A DNA stretch of 64,000 bases from Paraburkholderia aromaticivorans (GTDB taxonomy: Bacteria > Pseudomonadota > Gammaproteobacteria > Burkholderiales > Burkholderiaceae): NCBI RefSeq assembly GCF_012689525.1, contig NZ_CP051516.1:4402001-4466000 (forward strand), in the 5' to 3' direction. Position numbers and translations under genes: made by a program. Shown piece after piece: positions 13,906 through 31,639 of this stretch; position 1 is the first letter of the stretch, and each line of letters opens with the position of its first letter. The notes beneath the pieces were generated by a model. It was not told where the DNA came from. It ran no database searches and saw nothing but the letters and a program-made list of their open reading frames with translations.

Positions 13906-15051
13906 ATGCTCGGAATCAATAGCAACATCAACTCGCTGGTTGCACAGCAAAACCTTAATGGCTCGCAAAGCGCCCTTTCGCAAGCCATCACCCGCCTGTC
14001 GTCGGGCAAGCGCATCAACAGCGCGGCTGACGATGCAGCAGGTCTGGCAATCTCGACGCGTATGCAAACGCAGATCAACGGCCTGAACCAGGGCGTGTCG
14101 AATGCGAATGACGGCGTGTCGATGATTCAAACCGCATCGAGCGCACTGTCCTCGCTGACCTCCAGCCTGCAACGTATCCGTCAGTTGGCGGTGCAAGCAT
14201 CGACCGGTTCGCTGTCGTCGAGCGACCAGGCAGCGCTGCAGACGGAAGTTTCGGCGCAGATCGCTGAAGTGAACCGTATCGCTTCGCAAACGACGTACAA
14301 CGGCACGCACATTCTGGACGGCTCGGCAGGCAGCGTGTCGTTCCAGGTCGGCGCGAACGTCGGTCAGACGGTCAGCCTGAACCTGAGCCAATCGATGTCG
14401 GCAGCGCAGATCGGCGGCGGTCTGGTGCAAACGGGTCAAACGGTCGGCACGATCGCCGTCAGCCTGTCGGCGACCGGCACGTACACCAGCACGGGCGCGA
14501 CGATCACGTCTATCAACGTTCTGTCCGACGGCAAGGGCGGCTACACCTTCACGGACCAGAACAACACCGCCATCACGTCGGGCGTTGCAAACGCAATCTT
14601 CAGCGCAGGCACGGGCGCGGGCTCCGGCACGGCCATCACCTCCCTCGCCATCACCGCGGCAGCTCTGCCGACGACCGGCGCAGCTTCCGGGGCCGCCATC
14701 GCCGCCGTCAATCAGATCAACGCGATCAACGCACCGCCGACGGTTTCGGGCCTCGACATCAGCACGGTCACGGGCGCGAACGAAGCGATGGTCTCCATCG
14801 ACAACGCACTGCAAACGGTCAACACGCTGCAAGCTGCACTGGGCGCCGCGCAAAACCGTTTCACGGCAATCTCGACGGCGCAGCAAGCTGAATCGACCGA
14901 CCTGTCGTCGGCACAATCGCAAATCACGGACGCCAACTTCGCACAAGAAACGGCGAACCTGAGCAAGGCGCAAGTGCTGCAACAAGCTGGTATCTCGGTG
15001 TTGGCGCAAGCTAACTCGAACCCGCAGCAAGTTCTGAAGCTCCTGCAGTAA
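13906..15051 (+). CDS. fliC: FliC, flagellin
   Basis: The 381-residue protein has the conserved D0/D1 ends of flagellins (MLGINSNINSLVAQQNL at the start; ISVLAQANSNPQQVLKLLQ at the end) and a short variable centre (about residues 165-290) rich in Ser, Thr, Gly and Ala, well suited to O-glycosylation. It is exported by the flagellar type III system and builds the filament. The ATG at 13906 follows an AGGAG site; the upstream in-frame start at 13867 would add 13 unrelated residues. It is driven by a sigma-28 promoter. The glycosyltransferase cluster four genes downstream suggests that it is glycosylated (inference). Confidence 0.97.
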   Translation: MLGINSNINSLVAQQNLNGSQSALSQAITRLSSGKRINSAADDAAGLAISTRMQTQINGLNQGVSNANDGVSMIQTASSALSSLTSSLQRIRQLAVQASTGSLSSSDQAALQTEVSAQIAEVNRIASQTTYNGTHILDGSAGSVSFQVGANVGQTVSLNLSQSMSAAQIGGGLVQTGQTVGTIAVSLSATGTYTSTGATITSINVLSDGKGGYTFTDQNNTAITSGVANAIFSAGTGAGSGTAITSLAITAAALPTTGAASGAAIAAVNQINAINAPPTVSGLDISTVTGANEAMVSIDNALQTVNTLQAALGAAQNRFTAISTAQQAESTDLSSAQSQITDANFAQETANLSKAQVLQQAGISVLAQANSNPQQVLKLLQ

Positions 15052-15208: not shown

Positions 15209-16726
15209 ATGTCCTCGATCTCAACCTCGTCTTCTACAGCAAGCGCCAATGCCGCGCTGCAGTCGGCTGCTCAATCGATCATCAGCGGCTCGACGGGCAA
15301 TTCGTCGATGGACGTGTCGACGCTCGTCACGGCACTCGTGAACGCGAAGGTCGCCGGGCAAACTTCGGCTCTGGCGGCACAGCAAACCACCGACACCACC
15401 ACGCTGTCCGCGTACGGCGCACTGAGCTCCGCGCTCGGCGCCCTGCAGTCGGGCATCGCGAATCTCGCCAACGGCAATACGCTGGCAACCTTCGCGGCGA
15501 CCACGAGCGGCACCGGGCTGACCGCGACAGCCGGCGTCGGCGCCGTGGCCGGCAGCTACTCGGTCGCGGTGACGCAGATCGCCAGCTCGCAAGCCTTGTC
15601 GTCGGCAGCCTTCGGCGCCACGACGCAACTGGGCACCGGCACGCTGTCCATCTCACTGGGCAGCAAGTCGATGGATATCAGCGTCGACAGCACCAACAAC
15701 ACGCTCTCGGGCATCGCGTCGGCGATCAACGCGAGCAGCAGCAACCCCGGCGTCACGGCGACCATCGTGACCGGCACGGACGGCGCCCACCTTGTGCTGC
15801 GCGCGGCGAACACAGGGGCGGCCAACGTCATCAACGTTTCGACCAGCAACATCACCAGCGACACCGGCCTGTCGAGCCTCGGCGTGACGTCCACCGCCAG
15901 CACCACCGGCGGTCAGTCGTCCATTACATCGGCCAATTCGAGCAGCGCCTGGACGCAGAGCGGCTTCGCGCAGGACGCGGAGTACACGATCGGCGGAATC
16001 GCAGGCAGCAGCGCGAGCAACGCGGTAACCGGCGCCATTTCGGGCGTGACGATCAACCTGACGGCCGCGGCCGTGGGCACGCCCGCGGGCACCCCGCAGA
16101 CGCTGACGATTGCGCAGGACACCACCTCGCAGAACACCGCGATCAATAATTTCGTGAGCCTGTACAACACCGTCGTCACGACGATGAGCACGCTCACGTC
16201 GTTCAGCTCCGGCTCGACGTCGCAAGGTCCGCTGCTAGGCGACTCCACGCTGCAGACCATCAAGAACACGCTAGCCAATATCGTCGGCGGCGCGGTCGGC
16301 TCGGGCAGCACCGGCACCACGCTGGCGGCGATCGGCATCACGCTGAAGGACGATCCGGCCGACGGCACGATGGTGGTCGACAACAACGCGCTGAACACGG
16401 CGCTGACGACCAGCCCGGCCACGGTCGCATCGCTCTTTAACTCGACCAACGGCATTGCCGAGCAGTTGAACGCCAGCATCACCACGTTCACGCAGACCGG
16501 CGGCATCATCGACACGCGCAACACCGCGCTGAACGCCGACCTGAAAAGCATCACCACACAACAAACCGCGCTCGCCGATTACACGACACAATTGACGAAC
16601 CAGTATCAGGCACAGTTCACCGCCCTGAACACGTTGATGGCGACCATGAACAACAATTCGCAATACCTGACCGCGCTGTTCGGCGGCACCAACAGCGCGG
16701 GCGCGCTGGCCACGGGCAAGAGCTAA
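15209..16726 (+). CDS. fliD: FliD, flagellar filament cap
   Basis: The 505-residue protein fits FliD/HAP2: a helical N-terminus (VSTLVTALVNAKVAGQTSALAAQQ region, about 38-62), a long Ser/Thr/Ala/Gly-rich beta domain in the middle, and a helical C-terminus (ITTQQTALADYTTQLTNQYQ and the following helix, about 445-490). It forms the cap under which flagellin subunits fold. It is encoded 157 bases after fliC, and fliT follows after 3 bases, the usual fliC-fliD-fliT order in Burkholderia. The start MSSISTSSSTASANAALQ has only a weak ribosome-binding site (GGAG 14 bases upstream). Confidence 0.93.
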   Translation: MSSISTSSSTASANAALQSAAQSIISGSTGNSSMDVSTLVTALVNAKVAGQTSALAAQQTTDTTTLSAYGALSSALGALQSGIANLANGNTLATFAATTSGTGLTATAGVGAVAGSYSVAVTQIASSQALSSAAFGATTQLGTGTLSISLGSKSMDISVDSTNNTLSGIASAINASSSNPGVTATIVTGTDGAHLVLRAANTGAANVINVSTSNITSDTGLSSLGVTSTASTTGGQSSITSANSSSAWTQSGFAQDAEYTIGGIAGSSASNAVTGAISGVTINLTAAAVGTPAGTPQTLTIAQDTTSQNTAINNFVSLYNTVVTTMSTLTSFSSGSTSQGPLLGDSTLQTIKNTLANIVGGAVGSGSTGTTLAAIGITLKDDPADGTMVVDNNALNTALTTSPATVASLFNSTNGIAEQLNASITTFTQTGGIIDTRNTALNADLKSITTQQTALADYTTQLTNQYQAQFTALNTLMATMNNNSQYLTALFGGTNSAGALATGKS

Positions 16727-16729
16727 GCC

Positions 16730-17044
16730 ATGAACGCGCACAACATGACCCAGATGGAATTGGTCGAACGCGTGCTTTCCGTCACGCGGGAAATCGAGCA
16801 GGCCGCCTTGCTGGCGGACTGGCCGGAAGCCGCCCGCCTGACCGAAACGCGCTCGCCGCTGCTGATGTCGCTCACCGCGGATCAGGAACCGGCGGCGCTG
16901 GACATGATCCGCCAGATCCAGGCGATCGACGCGGCGCTGCTCGCGGACGCGGCAGTCACCCAGAACGAACTGCATGTCGAGTTCGAAGCGGCGATCGGAC
17001 GCACCAAGGCCGCCGGCGAATATCAGCGGATGGCCCGCCTGTAA
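16730..17044 (+). CDS. fliT: FliT-type flagellar export chaperone
   Basis: The 104-residue, all-helical protein sits 3 bases after fliD. Its size, helical pattern (VERVLSVTREIEQAALLADWPEAARL) and place match FliT, which binds FliD before export and in enteric bacteria also represses FlhDC. Sequence conservation in FliT is low, so the call relies partly on position. A strong terminator at 17157 ends the fliC-fliD-fliT group. Confidence 0.85.
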   Translation: MNAHNMTQMELVERVLSVTREIEQAALLADWPEAARLTETRSPLLMSLTADQEPAALDMIRQIQAIDAALLADAAVTQNELHVEFEAAIGRTKAAGEYQRMARL

Positions 17045-17156: not shown

Positions 17157-17181
17157 AGCCCGCCTCGTGCGGGCTTTTTTC
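17157..17181 (+). terminator. Rho-independent terminator after fliT
   Basis: The stem AGCCCGC-CTCGT-GCGGGCT is followed by TTTTTT. It separates the flagellar genes from the glycosylation cluster, which must therefore have its own promoter or depend on read-through. Confidence 0.88.
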
Positions 17182-17309: not shown

Positions 17310-19697
17310 ATGACTCTCCTGTACGAGCAGCCGCCTGCTGAACCCCTGACGCCCGAACAACAACTCGAGCAGGACATTGCGCTCGTGTTGCAAACGGCGC
17401 TCGACCATCACCACAAGGGCGAATTCGACGACGCCGAAGCGCTTTACCGGGCGATCCTCGACGCAAAACCGCAGCACGCGGATGCCCTGTATGACCTGGG
17501 TGTGTTGCTCGGTCAAACGGGCCGCCCCAAAAACGCCGTGCCCGTGCTCGAGTTAGCGCTGGGCCAACAGCCGCAGAACGGCCAGTATTGGGCGGCATAT
17601 ATCAGTGCGTTGATCGACGCCGGTGAAAGCGCCGCTGCGTGGCTTTCACTGGAAATGGGCCAGAAGCAGGGTCTGAAGGGTTCGGCGGTAGACGGCCTGA
17701 TCGTACGAATGGCCAATCCCGGCAAGGTCATCGCGACGCTGCCTGTGGCAGTGCAGAACTCGCAGGCCGGCGGCAGCGCCGCTGTCGAGACAGATACCGG
17801 CGCGGCAAATACGGCGGCGGAAACGGGCAAATCCACGATCGCGGCCGGACGTCGCGTGAGCCAACAGGAAACGACGCGATTCACGTCGCTGTACAACAAA
17901 GGCCAAATCACCGACGCCGTCAAACTTGCACGAACGCTCACTCAGCGGTTTCCCGCCGACGGTAACGCGTGGCGCTGGTTCGGGATTGCCCTGCATCGTC
18001 TGGGGCGGTACGACGACGCGCTCATTCCCTTGCGCAAAGCTGCCGAACTACTGCCGGAGGAACTGGAAAGCCGCACCGTCCTCGCGGATACGCTGCGCCT
18101 GAAAGGCCTGCACAAGGATGCCGAAGAAGTCTGCCGCGCGATCCTCGCCATCAATCCGGCGTACGCCGAAGCGCAACGGATCTACGGCATGTCGCTGGTT
18201 CACCAGGGACGCGTGGCCGAGGGTCTGGCAGCTGCGCGGCGCGCGATCGAACTGGCGCCGGACACGTCCGGCATGCACAACACGCTCGGCGTGCTACTGC
18301 TCGATCTGGGCCGGGTGACCGAGGCCGAGGAAAACTTTCGCGCCGCGCTGGAGAAAGAGCCGAAAGATGCGATCGCGGCGGATAACTATCTGTTCTCGCT
18401 CACTCACAATCCCGCGGTCAAGCAGGACACGCTGTTCGCCGAACACGTCAAATTCGCTCAACAGCACGAAGCGCCGGTGCGCGCGCAATGGCCGCGTCAT
18501 GTGAACAAGCGCACGCCTAACCGCAAGCTGAAAATCGGCCTTGTTTCCGGCGATCTGTTCCGTCACGCGGTCGCCTCCTATCTGCTGCCGATCATGGAGC
18601 GCCTCGCGACCGATCCCGGCGTCTCGCTGCATGTCTACAACAACCACATCGCGGAAGACGACTACACCCATCTGCTACGCAAATGCGCCCATGAGTGGCA
18701 CCAGGTCACCGGCATGCCGGACGCGCAGTTGGCGAACAGGATCCGCGACGACAGAATCGACATTCTGTTCGATCTGTCCGGTCATACGGGCCGCAATCGC
18801 CTTCTCACGTTCGTGCGCAAGCCCGCGCCGATCCAGGTCAGTTGGCTCGGCTATCCCGCCACGACCGGGCTAAGTGCGATGGACTATTACCTCGTGGACC
18901 GGTTCGGGGTGCCGTTCGGCCCCGCGGAACGCATGTTCTCCGAAAAGATCGTGCATTTGCCGGCGAACGCGCCCTTCCTGCCGGAAGAAAGCGCGCCGCC
19001 AGTCAATATCCTGCCGGCCATGCACAACGGCTATGTGACGTTCGGCAGCTTCAACCGTCTCAACAAATTGCGTCCCGACGTGATCGCTCTTTGGGCGGAA
19101 TTGCTGCAGGCCCAACCGTCGTCGCGAATGTTGCTGGGCGCGATTGCAACCGACGAGGACGAACAGCTTCTGATCGACTGGTTTGCCAACGCAGGCATCT
19201 CGCGCGAGCGCCTGATGTTCCGCCGCCGTTCGAGTATTCCGGTCTACCTGCAACAGCATTTCCACGTCGACATTTGCCTCGACACGTTCCCGTACACGGG
19301 CTCGACCACCGTGCTGAACTCATTGTGGATGGGCGTGCCGACCTTGACGATTGCAGGCGACACATTGCCCAGTCGCGCCGGCACCACCTGGATGTCGCAT
19401 GTCGGACTGGAACAGTTTCTCGCCACAGATAAGGCGGACTTCGTCGCCAAGGGCGTCGCGCTGTCTTCCGATATCGCCACGCTCGCCGCGCTGCGCACGG
19501 GTTTGCGCGAACGCTGCATGGCGTCGGCGGCATTCCGGCCTGAAGTGGTCGCTGCAGGTTTGTCACGCGCGTTGAGAATCATGTGGCAACGCTGGTGCGA
19601 CGATCAGCCGCCCGTCGCATTTGAAGTCACGGCGGAAGAAGCCATTGCCGCGACGGGCGACATCACCGTGCCGTCCAAAACAGGGGAAAGCCAATGA
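17310..19697 (+). CDS. TPR-containing GT41 (SPINDLY/OGT-like) glycosyltransferase, probable flagellin O-glycosyltransferase
   Basis: The 795-residue protein has N-terminal TPR repeats (about 25-100 and 190-350), split by a linker rich in Ala, Gly and Thr. A C-terminal GT41 domain (about 405-770) follows, with LKIGLVSGDLFRHAVASYL, IDILFDLSGHTGRNRL, PIQVSWLGYPATTGL, VTFGSFNRLNKLRPD and DTFPYTGSTTVLNSLWMGVPT. This is the layout of O-linked GlcNAc transferase and of bacterial flagellin glycosyltransferases. In Burkholderia cenocepacia a single transferase next to fliCD modifies flagellin at several sites. The ATG at 17310 is preferred over a frame starting at 17136, whose extra 58 residues look non-coding and overlap the fliT terminator. 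The stop overlaps the next start (ATGA). Acceptor and donor are inferred from context. Confidence 0.85.
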   Translation: MTLLYEQPPAEPLTPEQQLEQDIALVLQTALDHHHKGEFDDAEALYRAILDAKPQHADALYDLGVLLGQTGRPKNAVPVLELALGQQPQNGQYWAAYISALIDAGESAAAWLSLEMGQKQGLKGSAVDGLIVRMANPGKVIATLPVAVQNSQAGGSAAVETDTGAANTAAETGKSTIAAGRRVSQQETTRFTSLYNKGQITDAVKLARTLTQRFPADGNAWRWFGIALHRLGRYDDALIPLRKAAELLPEELESRTVLADTLRLKGLHKDAEEVCRAILAINPAYAEAQRIYGMSLVHQGRVAEGLAAARRAIELAPDTSGMHNTLGVLLLDLGRVTEAEENFRAALEKEPKDAIAADNYLFSLTHNPAVKQDTLFAEHVKFAQQHEAPVRAQWPRHVNKRTPNRKLKIGLVSGDLFRHAVASYLLPIMERLATDPGVSLHVYNNHIAEDDYTHLLRKCAHEWHQVTGMPDAQLANRIRDDRIDILFDLSGHTGRNRLLTFVRKPAPIQVSWLGYPATTGLSAMDYYLVDRFGVPFGPAERMFSEKIVHLPANAPFLPEESAPPVNILPAMHNGYVTFGSFNRLNKLRPDVIALWAELLQAQPSSRMLLGAIATDEDEQLLIDWFANAGISRERLMFRRRSSIPVYLQQHFHVDICLDTFPYTGSTTVLNSLWMGVPTLTIAGDTLPSRAGTTWMSHVGLEQFLATDKADFVAKGVALSSDIATLAALRTGLRERCMASAAFRPEVVAAGLSRALRIMWQRWCDDQPPVAFEVTAEEAIAATGDITVPSKTGESQ

Positions 19698-20839
19698 ACG
19701 CTGCCTTACCGCTTGGGGCCGTCGCGCCGCAGATCGACGAGCGCATTTACGTTACCCAGCCGCATCTCCCGCCGCTCGAAGAATTCATTCCCTATCTTCA
19801 ACAGATCTGGGACAGCAAGATCCTGACCAATGCCGGTCCGTTTCACCAACAGTTCGAAGCGGCGCTGTGCAAGTATCTCGGCGTCAAGCATCTTGCGCTG
19901 TTCACCAACGGCACGCTGGCGCTGCTCACCGCACTGCAAGCGCTGCGCGTGACCGGCGAAGTGATCACGACGCCCTATTCGTTCGTTGCCACCGCGCACT
20001 CGTTGGTCTGGAACGGCATTAAACCGGTATTCGTCGACGTCGATCCGCACACGCTGAATCTCGACCCTGCCAAGATCGAGGCAGCGATCACGCCGCAGAC
20101 CACCGCGATCATGCCGGTGCATTGCTACGGCAAGCCGTGCGACGTCGACGCGATCCAGAAGATCGCCGACAACTACAATCTGAAGGTGATCTACGACGCG
20201 GCCCATGCTTTCGGCGTGCAGACCGAAACCGGCAGCGTGCTCGAGCACGGCGACCTCGCCGTTCTGAGCTTCCACGCGACCAAGGTCTTCAACACGTTCG
20301 AAGGCGGCGCGATCATCTGTCAGGACGCCAAGACGAAGCAGCGTATCGACCATCTGAAGAACTTCGGTTTCGTCGATGAAGTGACCGTGGTTGCATCCGG
20401 CATCAACGGCAAGATGAGCGAGATCAACGCGGCATTCGGGCTGCTTCAGCTACAGCACATCGATGAAGCGCTGGCACGGCGCGCGCGGATCGACGCGATT
20501 TATCGCGAACGGCTGAGCGACGTGCGTGGTATTAGTTGCGTGCCGAAAGCGGGCGAGAAAGTGGCGAACCATTCGTACTTTCCGATTCTCGTCGGCCCGG
20601 ACTACCCGATCAGCCGCGACGCGCTGTATCAGAAGTTCCGCGACGAGAACATTTACGCACGGCGCTATTTCTATCCGCTGATCTCGGACTTTCCGATCTA
20701 TCGCGGCCTGCCTTCCGCGCGCCCCGATAACCTGCCGATCGCACACGCCGCTTCGCAACAGATACTGTGCCTGCCGATTTTCCCGGCACTGACGGACGGC
20801 ATGCTCGATCGCATCGTCGGGATCATCGCGGGTAGCTGA
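19694..20839 (+). CDS. vioA: VioA-type DegT/DnrJ/EryC1/StrS sugar aminotransferase
   Basis: The 381-residue PLP enzyme belongs to the nucleotide-sugar aminotransferases. The Schiff-base lysine is Lys197 (SFHATKVFNTFEGG) and the PLP-nitrogen aspartate is Asp168 (IYDAAHAFG). The N-terminus YVTQPHLPPLEEFIPYLQQIW is very like E. coli VioA, which converts dTDP-4-keto-6-deoxyglucose to dTDP-4-amino-4,6-dideoxyglucose (viosamine, Qui4N). In B. cenocepacia the flagellin sugar is an N-acylated Qui4N, which fits this context. No rmlA or rmlB is in the window, so the 4-keto sugar must come from elsewhere. The start overlaps the upstream stop by 4 bases, showing tight co-translation. Confidence 0.85.
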   Translation: MNAALPLGAVAPQIDERIYVTQPHLPPLEEFIPYLQQIWDSKILTNAGPFHQQFEAALCKYLGVKHLALFTNGTLALLTALQALRVTGEVITTPYSFVATAHSLVWNGIKPVFVDVDPHTLNLDPAKIEAAITPQTTAIMPVHCYGKPCDVDAIQKIADNYNLKVIYDAAHAFGVQTETGSVLEHGDLAVLSFHATKVFNTFEGGAIICQDAKTKQRIDHLKNFGFVDEVTVVASGINGKMSEINAAFGLLQLQHIDEALARRARIDAIYRERLSDVRGISCVPKAGEKVANHSYFPILVGPDYPISRDALYQKFRDENIYARRYFYPLISDFPIYRGLPSARPDNLPIAHAASQQILCLPIFPALTDGMLDRIVGIIAGS

Positions 20840-20844
20840 ACGTC

Positions 20845-21543
20845 ATGAAGCTCGCGATCATGCAGCCCTACCTGTTTCCGTACATCGGGTATTTCCAACT
20901 GGCGGCGGCCGTCGACAAGTTCGTCTTTTACGACGATGTGAATTTCATCAAGAATGGCTGGATCAACCGCAACCGGATGCTGCTGGGCGACGAGGTGCGT
21001 TATCTCACCGTGCCGCTCAGCGGTGCGAGTCCTTCGTTGAAGATTAATGAGGTACTGGTCGAACCGCGCGAGCGCTGGCTACGCAAGCTGCTCGAATCGA
21101 TGCGGCATGCCTATGCCAAAGCGCCTCACTACGCGCAGGTCAGCGCATTGATCGAACGGATCCTCGGGGAGCCTCTTGCGCCGGTTTCGCTGCTCGCGTC
21201 GCACACCGTCATGGAGGTCTGCAGGTACCTCGAGATCGAGACCGAGTTCGTCCGGTCTTCGACGAAGTACGGCAATGCGCAACTCAAAGGCGCCGAACGG
21301 GTTATCGACATCTGCGCGAGAGAACAGGCCAGCACCTACGTGAACCTGCCGGGTGGCCGCGCACTTTACGATAGCGCGGCATTCTCAGCGCGCGGCGTAG
21401 AGCTCGCCTTCATTGAACCGAACCTGTGTCCCTATGCGCAGTTCAACGACGCTTTTCACCCTGCTTTATCGATTCTCGACGTCCTCATGTTCAATAGCAA
21501 AGACAACGTCAGAGAGATGCTGTGCGTCGAGGTGAACGCATGA
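20845..21543 (+). CDS. WbqC family protein
   Basis: The 232-residue protein has the family hallmark near its start, MQPYLFPYIGYFQLA (residues 6-20), then FYDDVNFIKNGWINRNRM and YVNLPGGRALYD. WbqC-like proteins are found in O-antigen and other surface-glycan clusters, but their reaction is not established; a role in making or transferring an amino-sugar substituent has been suggested from context. It is cytosolic by sequence. It follows vioA by 5 bases and overlaps the next gene by 4 (ATGA), so it belongs to the same operon. Confidence 0.85.
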   Translation: MKLAIMQPYLFPYIGYFQLAAAVDKFVFYDDVNFIKNGWINRNRMLLGDEVRYLTVPLSGASPSLKINEVLVEPRERWLRKLLESMRHAYAKAPHYAQVSALIERILGEPLAPVSLLASHTVMEVCRYLEIETEFVRSSTKYGNAQLKGAERVIDICAREQASTYVNLPGGRALYDSAAFSARGVELAFIEPNLCPYAQFNDAFHPALSILDVLMFNSKDNVREMLCVEVNA

Positions 21544-22517
21544 TCCCGCGCGAGCCGCGCGCAATCGGCGGCTATTTCGAACTCGAACTGCCGCCGGCCG
21601 AAGCGACGCTTCACGACGACGCGCTGCGTTTTCAGTCGTCGCGAGCGGCGTTTCTTGCTCTGCTTCGCGCGATGCGACCGGCTGCCGTCTGGATGCCCTG
21701 GTACATTTGCGACGCGATGATCGAGCCTCTGCGCATGACCGGCACGCTGGTCAAACGCTATCAGCTCGACGCCGAATTGCGCGTGCAATCTGTCGATATC
21801 GCGCACGATGAATGGCTCGTTTACGTCAACTATTTCGGCTTGTGCGCTCGACAGGTCGACGACGTGCTCAACCGGTTCCCACGCGAGCGCGTCGTGATCG
21901 ACAATGCGCAGGCGTTGTTCGCGCAGCCCGCCGATTGCCTCGCCACACTGTATTCGCCGCGCAAATTCCTTGGCGTGCCGGATGGCGGATACCTCGTCAC
22001 ACAGCAGCCGATCGCGATGCCGGAAGCGACCGACGACGCCTCGTTGCAACGCAGCGGGCATCTGCTGACCCGGCTCGCGAAAGACGCGGAAGCAGGTTAC
22101 GCCGACTACGCCGCGGCCGAGGAGAGCCTGAAACATCAGGAGCCATTGCGCATGTCGGCACTGACTCAACGGCTACTCGCCGGCGTCGACTACGACAGCG
22201 TCCGCGCGCGACGAATCGAAAATTTCGCCTTCCTGCACGACAAATTGCAGCGCTATAACCGCTTCACGTTTCGTCACGACGAAGATGCGGTGCCGCTCTG
22301 CTACCCGTTTTTCGGTGCGCCGCCTGGCGTACGCGAGGCCTTTCGAGCACAACGCATCTATACGCCCACTTACTGGCCGGACGTTGCGGCCGCTGAAGGC
22401 GCGCCGGACTTCGAGCGCAATCTTCCTGATTCGACCTTGTGCCTGCCGTGCGATCAGCGGCTGACGCGCAACGATCTGGCGCCGATGGTGCAACACTTAC
22501 TGGAACGGCTCGCATGA
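21540..22517 (+). CDS. Divergent DegT/DnrJ-fold (PLP aminotransferase-like) protein
   Basis: The 325-residue protein lacks overall similarity to textbook aminotransferases but keeps their landmarks in order: IDNAQALFAQ with Asp121 matching the PLP-nitrogen aspartate, and SPRKFLGVPDGG with Lys142 placed six residues before Gly-Gly, exactly as the catalytic lysine of the VioA-like protein two genes upstream. It starts at an ATG overlapping the wbqC stop and ends overlapping the start of the GNAT gene, so it is embedded in the operon. It may be an active aminotransferase on a second position or substrate, or a partner of WbqC. The assignment is motif-based; I did not recognise a named family. 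Confidence 0.6.
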   Translation: MIPREPRAIGGYFELELPPAEATLHDDALRFQSSRAAFLALLRAMRPAAVWMPWYICDAMIEPLRMTGTLVKRYQLDAELRVQSVDIAHDEWLVYVNYFGLCARQVDDVLNRFPRERVVIDNAQALFAQPADCLATLYSPRKFLGVPDGGYLVTQQPIAMPEATDDASLQRSGHLLTRLAKDAEAGYADYAAAEESLKHQEPLRMSALTQRLLAGVDYDSVRARRIENFAFLHDKLQRYNRFTFRHDEDAVPLCYPFFGAPPGVREAFRAQRIYTPTYWPDVAAAEGAPDFERNLPDSTLCLPCDQRLTRNDLAPMVQHLLERLA

Positions 22518-23038
22518 GCGACAACACAATATTCCTGCGCGAGATCGAACGCGGCGACCTGCTGACGATCAATGCGTGGCGCGCCGACAAGGCGCTGGTC
22601 GGCCTGCTGGGCGGCGCCTTCCGGTACGTGGGTGCCGAGATCGACAACAAATGGTTCGATAGCTATCTCGGCTCCCGGGCGAATAACGTGCGTCTCGCCG
22701 TGTGCCTCGCGTCTACCCAGGAAGTGGTCGGCGTGACGTATCTGCTAGGCATCGACTGGGTGAACCGCAACGCGGAGTTCTCGATTCAGATTGGCGCGGA
22801 GACGGCACGCGGGCGGGGCATCGGTGAGGCCGCCACGCGCCAGACGCTCGAACATGCATTCGACGACCTCAACCTCAACCGTATTTCGCTGACCGTGCTC
22901 GCGTCCAATGCGCGCGCCATCGCGCTCTACGAGAAAGTGGGCTTTCGCGCCGAAGGTCTTTCGCGCCAGGCCGCCTTCAAAGGCGGCCGCTATCTCGACG
23001 TCATGCCGATGGCCATCCTGGCTGCCGATCGACGCTGA
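22514..23038 (+). CDS. GNAT N-acyltransferase (RimJ/RimL-type)
   Basis: The 174-residue protein has the acetyl-CoA-binding motif A with Arg99-Gly-Arg-Gly-Ile-Gly104 and the motif B region NARAIALYEKVGFRAEG (Tyr139). In sugar clusters such proteins acylate the amino group made by the aminotransferase, as PseH does for pseudaminic acid. Here the likely job is N-acylation of the 4-amino sugar, with acetyl-CoA or another acyl-CoA. I chose the ATG at 22514, which overlaps the preceding stop (ATGA); an earlier in-frame start at 22439 lies inside the upstream gene. Substrate by inference only. Confidence 0.8.
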   Translation: MSDNTIFLREIERGDLLTINAWRADKALVGLLGGAFRYVGAEIDNKWFDSYLGSRANNVRLAVCLASTQEVVGVTYLLGIDWVNRNAEFSIQIGAETARGRGIGEAATRQTLEHAFDDLNLNRISLTVLASNARAIALYEKVGFRAEGLSRQAAFKGGRYLDVMPMAILAADRR

Positions 23039-23071
23039 GCCTTTTACTTTTGCCGTTGCCTCGCTCCACTC

Positions 23072-23857
23072 ATGAACACGATTGACGCTCAACACCACAC
23101 CGCGCTCGCCACGGCGGGCTGGACGGTGCTTCCCGGACTGATTCGCAGCGAACTGCTCGATTCGCTGGTCGAGGCGCTCGGTCCTTCGCTCGCGTTGCGC
23201 GACGAAATCAGGCGACGCAACGGCGTGCTGGAAAACAGCGCCGGCACCTTGCATCATCTTCTGATGGATGAGCCGTGCTACGTCGAATTGCTGGCGGAAC
23301 TCTCAGCGCTGGAGCCGGTTTTCAAAGGATACTTTGACGGCAACTTTGTTCTGAATTCCTACGGCGGCGTGATCAACGAGCGCGACTCGCGCTCCTACGT
23401 GCAGAACGTGCATCGCGATATCCGCTTCGGCTCCGACACGCGACGCTTCATGGTGAACGCGCTGGTGATGCTCGACGATTTCACGCTGGACAATGGCGCG
23501 ACGCATATTCTTTCGCACTCGCAAAACCTCCAGCAGCAACCCGCCAATGAGCATTTTTACGCGCAGGCGTCGCGGGCTACCGGAAAGCGCGGCTCGGTTC
23601 TGCTGTTCGATTCACGCATGTGGCACGCCACCGGCCGCAACACCACCGATGCGCCGCGCCGTGCGCTGACACTGACGTTCACCAGCCCCTTCTTCAAGCC
23701 GCAGCTCGACTACGCGCGGCAATTCGGATACCGCAATCTCGACCGCTGCAACGCATGGATGCGCCAGGTGCTCGGCTTCAACGCCCGGGTGCCTGAATCG
23801 CTCGATGAGTTTTACGTGCCGGTGGAGCAGCGGTTCTATCAACGCGGACAGGATTGA
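23072..23857 (+). CDS. Phytanoyl-CoA dioxygenase-like Fe(II)/2-oxoglutarate oxygenase
   Basis: The 261-residue protein has the double-stranded beta-helix of PhyH enzymes. The iron ligands are His114 and Asp116 (NVHRDIRFG) and His185 (RMWHATGRN), with Arg197 (DAPRRALTLTF) placed to bind 2-oxoglutarate. It should hydroxylate a carbon of its substrate, here perhaps the sugar or its N-acyl group. It sits 33 bases after the GNAT gene and 5 bases before the methyltransferase, in the same operon. Oxygenases are not part of the published B. cenocepacia Qui4N pathway as I recall it, so this points to a different glycan. Confidence 0.8.
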   Translation: MNTIDAQHHTALATAGWTVLPGLIRSELLDSLVEALGPSLALRDEIRRRNGVLENSAGTLHHLLMDEPCYVELLAELSALEPVFKGYFDGNFVLNSYGGVINERDSRSYVQNVHRDIRFGSDTRRFMVNALVMLDDFTLDNGATHILSHSQNLQQQPANEHFYAQASRATGKRGSVLLFDSRMWHATGRNTTDAPRRALTLTFTSPFFKPQLDYARQFGYRNLDRCNAWMRQVLGFNARVPESLDEFYVPVEQRFYQRGQD

Positions 23858-23862
23858 CGACC

Positions 23863-24600
23863 ATGAGCAGAGACTACAACGCGGAAGCGAAAGATCATCC
23901 CGAACATCGCTACGCTTATGACTTCGATTACCTGATGCATGAATACATGCTTCGGACGTTTGCACCGTTTCTCGTGAGCGGCAACGCGCTCGAACTGGGA
24001 TGCTTCGAAGGTAACTTCACGCGACTCCTGGCGCAGCGGTTCGATTCACTGGAAGTGGTCGAGGCATCGGCAGACTGCATTGCCGTTGCGTCGGATAAGA
24101 CGAAAGGCGCCGTCAAATTCCATCACGCGACGTTCGAGACTTTTGAACCCGCGCGACGCTACGACAACATCTTCCTGATCCATACGCTCGAACACCTCGA
24201 TCATCCGATCGAAGTCCTGAGCCGGATCGGTAGCTGGCTATCGGACGGCGGCCGCCTATTCGTGGCTGCGCCGAATGCGCGCGCCGGATCCCGGCAAATC
24301 GCGGTCAATATGGGGCTAATCGACCATCACGCAGCCGTGACGGCGGCTGAAGCCGCACACGGTCATCGCGTGACCTATTCGATCGACACGCTGCGAGCCG
24401 ATCTGCGTGCGGCAAAGCTCCGCCCGGTCACCGAAGGCGGGGTCTTTTTCAAGGGTCTCGCCAACTTCCAGATCGATGCGGCATTACAGGCCGGCATCAT
24501 ATCCAGAGAGTATCTTGATGGCTGTTTTGAGCTGGGGCGCGTTTATCCCGACTTGTGCTCCAGCGTGTACGCGATATGCGAGCGCGGCATAGCCAACTGA
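23863..24600 (+). CDS. Class I SAM-dependent methyltransferase
   Basis: The 245-residue protein has SAM motif I as Glu44-Leu-Gly-Cys-Phe-Glu-Gly50, followed by SLEVVEASADCIAVA (motif II acidic residue) and YDNIFLIHTLEHLDHPIEVL (post-motif region of the UbiE/Methyltransf_11 type). It resembles the small-molecule and sugar O- or N-methyltransferases found in surface-glycan clusters. The ATG at 23863 lies five bases after the dioxygenase stop; a TTG three codons earlier overlaps that stop and is less likely. It is the last large gene of the operon. The substrate is unknown; the flagellar sugar is the obvious candidate. Confidence 0.82.
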   Translation: MSRDYNAEAKDHPEHRYAYDFDYLMHEYMLRTFAPFLVSGNALELGCFEGNFTRLLAQRFDSLEVVEASADCIAVASDKTKGAVKFHHATFETFEPARRYDNIFLIHTLEHLDHPIEVLSRIGSWLSDGGRLFVAAPNARAGSRQIAVNMGLIDHHAAVTAAEAAHGHRVTYSIDTLRADLRAAKLRPVTEGGVFFKGLANFQIDAALQAGIISREYLDGCFELGRVYPDLCSSVYAICERGIAN

Positions 24601-31563: not shown

Positions 31564-31639
31564 TGGTGCGCCCGGCTGGGATCGAACCAGCAACCCCTGC
31601 CTTCGGAGGGCAGTACTCTATCCATTGAGCTACGGGCGC
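31564..31639 (-). tRNA. tRNA-Arg, anticodon CCG
   Basis: The 76-base minus-strand gene folds as a cloverleaf: acceptor stem GCGCCCG/CGGGCGC, anticodon stem CTGCC/GGCAG with loop CTCCGAA (anticodon CCG, reading CGG codons), T-arm with GGTTCGATCC, and an encoded 3' CCA. A terminator follows. No integrated element borders it. Confidence 0.97.

Follow-up and report, generated by a model that had tools for sequence, protein, structure and literature searches.

Gene content and relatives of a probable flagellin glycosylation island in Paraburkholderia aromaticivorans, and a candidate route to amino-acyl Qui4N

Genes behind fliC-fliD-fliT

The window, a stretch of 64,000 nucleotides on the forward strand of contig NZ_CP051516.1 of P. 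aromaticivorans (assembly GCF_012689525.1, positions 4,402,001 to 4,466,000), holds the flagellar genes fliC, fliD and fliT followed by seven tightly packed genes (17310-24600), an arrangement that was noted in the first-pass annotation and is confirmed here (Table 1). FliC is 84-97% identical across 31 of the 32 close-relative stretches, L030 being left out as it is without the glycosyltransferase, and FliD was matched in 144 of 144 genomes of the genus at E<=0.001. The hairpin between fliT and the glycosyltransferase gene has 7 pairs, of which 6 are G-C, and ranked first in a consensus scan that gave 16 terminator-like sites across the region against 11.9 (sd 4.0) expected. The GC content of the cluster is 0.585-0.635, inside the range of its surroundings.

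Table 1. Positions in the window of the flagellar genes, the hairpin and the seven genes behind them.
Feature	Position	Strand	Evidence
fliC, flagellin, presumed acceptor	13906..15051	+	ORF; longest ORF from 13867
fliD, filament cap	15209..16726	+	ORF; genus-wide matches
fliT, flagellar chaperone	16730..17044	+	Pfam FliT 25.8 bits, slightly under cut-off 29.5
Terminator-like hairpin, then TTTTT, between fliT and glycosyltransferase	17157..17175	+	consensus scan
TPR + GT41 (SPINDLY/OGT-type), presumed flagellin O-glycosyltransferase	17310..19697	+	Pfam, PDB, tree test
VioA-type dTDP-4-amino-4,6-dideoxy-D-glucose (Qui4N) aminotransferase	19694..20839	+	DegT 348.7 bits
WbqC family (PF08889), proposed amino acid : amino-sugar ligase	20845..21543	+	
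Gene 4, short DegT-fold PLP protein without Pfam family	21540..22517	+	predicted fold
GNAT acyltransferase, proposed cap enzyme for sugar-linked amino acid	22514..23038	+	Acetyltransf_3 63.1 bits
PhyH-type Fe(II)/2-oxoglutarate dioxygenase, putative tailoring hydroxylation	23072..23857	+	PhyH 65.5 bits
SAM-dependent methyltransferase	23854..24600	+	Methyltransf_23 75.8 bits

In the glycosyltransferase TPR repeats precede a GT41 domain (Pfam Glyco_transf_41 and TPR), a SPINDLY/FlmG-like layout, and the protein matched the SPINDLY structure 7y4i in the PDB at E 1e-82. VioA is 60% identical to the aminotransferase of E. coli O121 and 58% to that of O123, serogroups whose O-antigens both contain Qui4N; it is assigned as VioA-type on this kinship with enzymes from clusters whose Qui4N has been structurally solved. 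It was not filed as DesI, since it scored 304.5 bits against the NCBIfam equivalog TIGR04427, for which the curated cut-off is 650. The GNAT is 28.7% identical to the O123 GNAT and hardly like that of O121 (6 bits). The dioxygenase matched DhiD in the PDB at E 3e-8, and the methyltransferase, which starts at TTG 23854 or ATG 23863, matched the hypothetical protein 2p7h at E 9.6e-84.

WbqC scored 234.7 bits against a Pfam cut-off of 21.3 and is the sole PF08889 match of this genome; one search returned 5355 relatives of it. Gene 4 matched no Pfam model at E<=0.1, DegT (PF01041) included, and is filed only as a DegT-fold relative; the predicted structure has a DegT fold of PLP type with the Asp and Lys PLP residues. 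A PDB profile search with the gene-4 alignment gave nothing relevant. The idea that gene 4 is a dead aminotransferase was rejected, as the PLP residues are kept in 83-84 of 84 alignment rows. An order-wide gene-4 profile search matched 23 genomes, 13 of which had only scores below 45 bits, likely ordinary DegT proteins, and were set aside as a group ahead of the counts.

Cassette exchange at the flagellin locus

Sugar genes and a glycosyltransferase gene adjoin the flagellin genes at this locus, and among the relatives compared fliC-fliD-fliT is kept, with the glycosyltransferase, VioA and the genes behind swapped as one block. Such variability at a fixed site is seen between L014 and L015, where FliD is 98.6% alike, the glycosyltransferase 79.8%, and the cassettes differ. 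FliD retains some association with cassette type, as 7 of 200 shuffles were as low in a label-change tree test; this covered types A, Av, B and C in 34 of the 48 stretches having FliD and the glycosyltransferase, 13 'other' stretches and one with WbqC alone being left out. The 60 stretches of the comparison were picked via FliD and gene-4 matches, not at random, and include the second-locus stretches L048 and L049.

Flagellin glycosylation islands are known from other bacteria, and the first-pass annotation had taken the cluster for one. Its position, the FlmG-like TPR-glycosyltransferase layout and the exchange of glycosyltransferase, VioA and cassette at the fixed flagellin locus give this reading good support; flagellin would then be the acceptor. 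The cluster is not unique, gene 4 being carried by 17 of the 144 genomes of the genus, the present one among them. In the relative L018 WbqC is present and gene 4 absent.

In B. cenocepacia a glycosyltransferase beside fliCD reportedly adds acylated Qui4N to flagellin. From the addition of WbqC, dioxygenase and methyltransferase genes, a differently decorated sugar had been expected here. Dioxygenase and methyltransferase genes do not set this cluster apart, for the acyl-type cassette of the relative L011 also holds PhyH, Rieske and methyltransferase genes. The expected difference itself gains support; most likely, the hydroxyacyl group is replaced on the 4-amine by an N-linked amino acid that is itself capped.

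A candidate route to capped amino-acyl Qui4N

The order VioA-WbqC-gene 4-GNAT is the same in the O-antigen clusters of E. coli O123/O186 (L192, L193), and the O123 sugar is Qui4N with N-(3-hydroxybutanoyl)-D-alanyl. These clusters differ from the present one in that the sugar enters the O-antigen with Wzx/Wzy, and in that a MaoC gene stands next, where PhyH and the methyltransferase are found here, the cap being hydroxybutanoyl. E. coli O121 (L191) shares VioA-WbqC-GNAT but is without gene 4 and has the very different GNAT; its O-antigen carries Qui4N with N-acetylglycyl. O7, O39 and O116 (L199-L201) share VioA, with VioB or another acyltransferase next and neither WbqC nor gene 4. The VioA stretch had matched 171 of 5426 genomes, and the six regions were taken from the matches listed: three were chosen as annotated DegT, not vioA (O121 and two O123/O186), and three vioA-annotated regions served as controls (O7, O116 and O39). 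An Enterobacter WbqC-gene 4 stretch used as a DNA query against E. coli gave no match. The O7, O39 and O116 controls are in favour of the amino-acid reading, which draws on two serogroups and is at its weakest in the D-configuration step.

On balance we favour a cytoplasmic O-glycosylation of flagellin by capped amino-acyl Qui4N, with WbqC as ligase, gene 4 as epimerase and the GNAT as cap enzyme. RmlA and RmlB, encoded elsewhere in the genome, would make dTDP-4-keto-6-deoxyglucose, from which VioA would form dTDP-Qui4N. From there on we infer that WbqC, as an ATP-using ligase of HUP fold, would link dTDP-Qui4N, at its 4-amine, to the carboxyl of an amino acid. Gene 4 would set the attached amino acid, most likely by turning L- into D-alanine, and this inversion may proceed on the nucleotide sugar by way of an aldimine formed with the alpha-amine of alanine. 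We know of no PLP epimerase with such an activity on an amino acid borne by a nucleotide sugar. The GNAT would acylate the alpha-amine of the attached amino acid, probably with acetyl, and PhyH and the methyltransferase may supply hydroxyl and methyl groups. In the GT41 enzyme the TPR part would bind flagellin and the C-terminal part would move the monosaccharide to Ser/Thr. By calculation the residue on flagellin would weigh 258.12 Da as Qui4N + Ala + acetyl, 272.14 Da with methyl, 274.12 Da with hydroxyl and 288.13 Da with both, values that would change with another amino acid, against 187.08 Da for plain Qui4NAc before tailoring.

The predicted fold of WbqC is closest to that of BshC, which in bacillithiol synthesis is the putative amino-acid ligase and whose activity had not been demonstrated in vitro by 2015, according to PMC4360819. 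BshC is 9% identical to WbqC without a profile match, and is the larger protein (540 versus 232 residues) with a coiled-coil domain. Counting against the proposed ligase role, Foldseek returned no structure matching the WbqC model at E<=0.001, and comparing profiles with those of a thin set of BshC proteins found nothing. A PDB profile search with the WbqC alignment gave nothing relevant. The published literature on WbqC, at the level of titles and listings, contained no functional assignment; 'Wbq' is absent from PMC4732683 and PMC4873512, and WbqG of E. coli O121 is mentioned in a passage of PMC7468200.

A survey of the best 80 of 175 gene-4 relatives, some from genomes shared with the genus set, found the WbqC-gene 4 core in several phyla. 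An ATP-grasp protein replaces WbqC in 8 of these loci. Against the favoured route, 7 have neither that protein nor WbqC within 5 kb, among them L128, where WbqC lies farther away, and L161 and L166, which are truncated at contig ends. In L178 WbqC is present, and behind gene 4 lies a protein related more weakly to that ATP-grasp protein. Also against the route, with the narrow profiles used, 35 of the 80 showed none of GNAT, PhyH, methyltransferase and a second ATP-grasp class; the Proteus locus L189 had no GNAT by profile. Other aminotransferases as triad partners were considered by scanning 10 lower-scoring partners (matches at E<=1e-60 only), and DesI was the best NCBIfam model for all 10, each below its cut-off of 650, so no firm statement on other sugars is made.

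Gene 4 might instead be a transaminase, aminating on the sugar a keto acid such as pyruvate that WbqC has attached, or it might make a free D-amino acid for WbqC to attach. The structural matches listed for gene 4, mostly sugar aminotransferases, speak for this, as does its absence from O121, where the amino acid is the achiral glycine. Against it, L-alanine is plentiful in the cell and a keto-acid route would be unneeded. We hold this explanation to be rather unlikely. It is quite improbable that the GNAT acetylates the 4-amine of Qui4N directly, with PhyH and the methyltransferase decorating a plain acyl sugar and WbqC and gene 4 adding a group that has nothing to do with amino acids, such as a second amine. 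The GNAT does resemble PseH, an N-acetyltransferase acting on the 4-amine of a sugar (61.3 bits, under the NCBIfam equivalog cut-off of 93.1), and simple N-acylated Qui4N is known on P. syringae flagellin (PMC3927599). However, WbqC accompanies amino-acid Qui4N in two serogroups and is absent from the three VioA controls, and within the genus all 14 type C stretches having the single LbH acyltransferase are without WbqC and gene 4.

A further alternative, in which the GNAT takes the amino acid from an activated donor (aminoacyl-tRNA, for example) to the sugar and WbqC carries out another step, seems to us very improbable. A precedent in PMC7468200 is VimA of P. gingivalis and T. forsythia, which has a predicted N-acetyltransferase function and determines if the sugar amine receives serine or glycine; it weakens the case for WbqC in the amino-acid step. 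Against the GNAT as the amino-acid transferase, the second ATP-grasp class is found in 13 of the 80 gene-4 loci with the GNAT absent by profile, the ATP-grasp protein of the 8 loci replaces WbqC and not the GNAT, and the O123 and O121 sugars bear a cap as well as an amino acid, which calls for two transfers. That the cluster feeds a surface polysaccharide, as the same core would where it lies in O-antigen or polysaccharide-like clusters (L105, L191, L192), is highly implausible, given that its sole transferase is the TPR-GT41 enzyme, that it has no flippase or polymerase, and that block exchange takes place at the fliCDT site.

More generally, WbqC could tentatively be regarded as an ATP-dependent amino acid : amino-sugar ligase with a fold like those of BshC and aminoacyl-tRNA synthetases, and gene 4 as a PLP epimerase, which would equip flagellin and many surface glycans with D-amino-acid sugars. 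If true, two large families without function would gain precise reactions, and flagellin a type of modification new to it, possibly with a D-amino acid and with a potential effect on how plant or animal immune receptors recognise it. A cassette would also become readable from its genes, KAS genes pointing to hydroxyacyl, a lone acyltransferase for acetyl, WbqC for an amino acid, and WbqC with gene 4 for a changed or D-amino acid.

Relation to known systems

Chemical work established long ago that bacterial surface sugars can carry amino acids (PMC10609480), and among the enzymes proposed for some of these are VimA (PMC7468200) and the 'alt' alanine transferases of Acinetobacter (PMC9676051). 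No enzyme for putting an amino acid on Qui4N was found named in the literature searched. The VimA system of P. gingivalis resembles the present one in an amino acid on a surface-sugar amine and a GNAT-like protein involved, and differs in its uronic-acid linking sugar and in that the GNAT-like protein is itself the proposed amino-acid transferase; WbqC is unnamed in the portion of PMC7468200 used.

In the viosamine island of P. syringae, as described in portions of PMC3927599, flagellin likewise carries a VioA-derived modified, methylated Qui4N. There, however, the group is 3-hydroxybutanoyl, formed via N-acetoacetyl-viosamine, the sugar sits at the end of a rhamnose chain, and those portions hold no WbqC step. 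The enterobacterial islands of De Maayer & Cowan 2016 (PMC4875605) are a variable flagellin-modifying block with GT41, DegT, methyltransferases, acyltransferases and horizontal exchange, and its Results sections 7-9 leave WbqC, a gene-4-type protein and amino acids unmentioned. The transferase is laid out like FlmG in Caulobacter, which, in the parts of PMC7591256 drawn on, is cytoplasmic, with a TPR N-terminus that binds flagellin and a C-terminal glycosyltransferase; its donor is pseudaminic acid, whereas that of the present enzyme would be a derivative of Qui4N.

The seven-gene cluster and its precursor supply

ORF and family scans recovered the seven genes that the first-pass annotation had claimed after fliCDT, at the coordinates it gave. 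The junctions within the cluster are four 4-bp overlaps, one 5-bp gap and one 33-bp gap. Since 265 bp and a terminator-like hairpin separate fliT from the start of the glycosyltransferase gene (GT), the cluster is probably an operon of its own. A tRNA-Arg (CCG) gene is located on the minus strand about 7 kb downstream (window 31564-31639).

Coordinates of the cluster genes and the preceding hairpin in the window
Feature	Position	Location
Terminator-like hairpin	17157-17175	between fliT and GT
TPR-GT41 (GT)	17310-19697	
VioA-type	19694-20839	
WbqC	20845-21543	
Gene 4 (short, DegT-fold)	21540-22517	
GNAT	22514-23038	
PhyH-type dioxygenase (PhyH)	23072-23857	
Methyltransferase (MT)	23854-24600	

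The source genome (10.84 Mb, 4 contigs), for which the closest named proteins belong to Paraburkholderia, contained a single WbqC match. Three RmlB and three RmlA scored above curated cut-offs, as adjacent pairs elsewhere in the genome, and these can be regarded as a possible source of dTDP-4-keto-6-deoxyglucose. A second FliD, 70% identical (G000 C3:970080-971567), marks what is apparently a second flagellar system, and the 20-kb stretch around it (L048) gave no glycosylation-gene matches.

Exchange of cassettes at the flagellin locus

FliD was matched in 144 of 144 genus genomes and gene 4 in 17 of the 144, source genome counted. Sixty stretches picked through FliD and gene-4 matches made 61 with the window, and 48 of these held both FliD and GT. 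By the genes that follow, the 48 comprised type A, the type of the window (n = 10), gene 4 without GNAT (n = 4), type B (n = 6), type C (n = 14), WbqC without gene 4 (n = 1) and others (n = 13). Type B has KAS III genes, usually two, followed in L011, the sole member scanned, by a reductase, an LbH acyltransferase, a Rieske oxygenase, two methyltransferases and PhyH; members vary, and L014 is without the last genes of this set. Type C has a single PglD-like LbH acyltransferase (one member scanned).

In trees of 34 rows, the number of changes in cassette label was 5 for the catalytic part of GT, 5 for its TPR part, 4 for VioA and 14 for FliD, against approximately 17 with shuffled labels; 7 of 200 shuffles were equally low for FliD, so some clustering by cassette remains. 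Between L014 (type B) and L015 (type A), identity is 98.6% for FliD and 79.8% for GT. The few label changes relative to FliD, together with this pair, argue that GT, VioA and the cassette behind them travel jointly while the flagellin locus stays put. Joint movement of GT with the cassette is expected if the transferase must fit the donor sugar.

The WbqC-gene 4 core and its variants

All 17 genus gene-4 loci were fetched and all 17 had a WbqC-type gene nearby, a paralogue in four (Pfam check on one). A wider sample, the best 80 of 175 gene-4 relatives in named genomes, spans by titles Pseudomonadota, Bacteroidota, Bacillota, Nitrospirae and others. Among these 80, 65 had WbqC no more than 5 kb from gene 4, 56 of them at 500 bp or less, and 74 had a DegT aminotransferase no further than 6 kb away; the stretch held fliC or fliD in 24, GT41 in 32, and GNAT, PhyH and MT all together in 13. 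One locus from another family of the same taxonomic order, L105, displays VioA-WbqC-gene4-GNAT-PhyH-MT in the order of the window (identities 73, 42, 36, 34, 45 and 54%, respectively). No fliC or fliD match was detected within the L105 stretch, and its neighbours, judged from their first residues, look like polysaccharide-type genes. That two kinds of acceptor are served, in flagellin loci and in this polysaccharide-like setting, suggests that the module completes the sugar at the nucleotide level, ahead of transfer.

A second ATP-grasp class lies near gene 4 in GNAT-less loci (L043, L037, L117, L118, L167, L174 and others), with ATPgrasp_Ter matches in L043 and L168. It occurred together with GNAT in none of the best 80 of 175 loci, and its role may be to cap the amino acid using another acid. 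In Sulfurimonas (L162:9948-10958) and Sulfuricurvum (L173:9953-10957) a protein of about 335 residues follows DegT-WbqC-gene4, matching Sulfotransfer_3 in L162; both stretches also hold flagellin-like matches, and such loci perhaps make sulfated sugars. Clostridium ganghwense (L170, 8983-13079) has two copies of gene 4 and two proteins of about 305 residues alike at the start, of which the one scanned had no Pfam match. A further variant (L122, L123, L130, L132, L133, L140, L044-L047) has a WbqC paralogue on the strand opposite to gene 4 and two additional DegT aminotransferases; the strand order differs in L044.

Comparison with known sugars and transferases

VioA was matched in 171 of 5426 complete E. 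coli genomes, and six regions were opened. The O121 cluster runs rfbB-rfbA-VioA-WbqC-GNAT-wzx, with gene 4 absent from the stretch; its WbqC was present in 13 of the 5426 genomes, one labelled O103. A review citing the O121 structure gives N-acetylglycyl on Qui4N (PMC3210612), as is reported for S. dysenteriae D7 (PMC10609480). The O123/O186 cluster, named from its annotated flippase and found in 10 of the 5426 genomes, runs VioA-WbqC-'hypothetical protein'-GNAT-MaoC, where the protein annotated as hypothetical is in fact gene 4 (361 bits; 36% to that of the window). The O123 sugar is described as Qui4N bearing N-[(S)-3-hydroxybutanoyl]-D-alanyl (PMC10609480), and is shared by Salmonella O58 according to a cited title. 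A close gene-4 relative (81%) belongs to Salmonella enterica subsp. salamae.

In the controls O7, O116 and O39, the gene behind VioA is VioB or a different acyltransferase, and both WbqC and gene 4 are absent from these clusters. The O7 sugar is presumably N-acetyl-Qui4N. The same product is reported for O39 and O116 (PMC4732683). WbqC was thus present in 2 of 2 opened clusters with an amino acid and in 0 of 3 without. On this pattern, and on the VioA-WbqC-gene4-GNAT order that the window shares with O123/O186, we propose that WbqC would attach an amino acid to the sugar and GNAT would cap it, gene 4 being required for D-alanine and dispensable for glycine.

GT combines TPR repeats with a GT41 domain (Pfam; PDB search), an arrangement like that of Caulobacter FlmG, in which the TPR part is reported to bind flagellin and the C-terminal part to be the transferase (PMC7591256). 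By this analogy GT would glycosylate FliC; glycans at a single site have been reported for Burkholderia flagellins (PMC3958885). The cluster is of a kind already known, the flagellin glycosylation island, and what is new is the aminoacyl reading of its cassette, the putative WbqC reaction and the finding that gene 4 is a conserved partner with a DegT fold.
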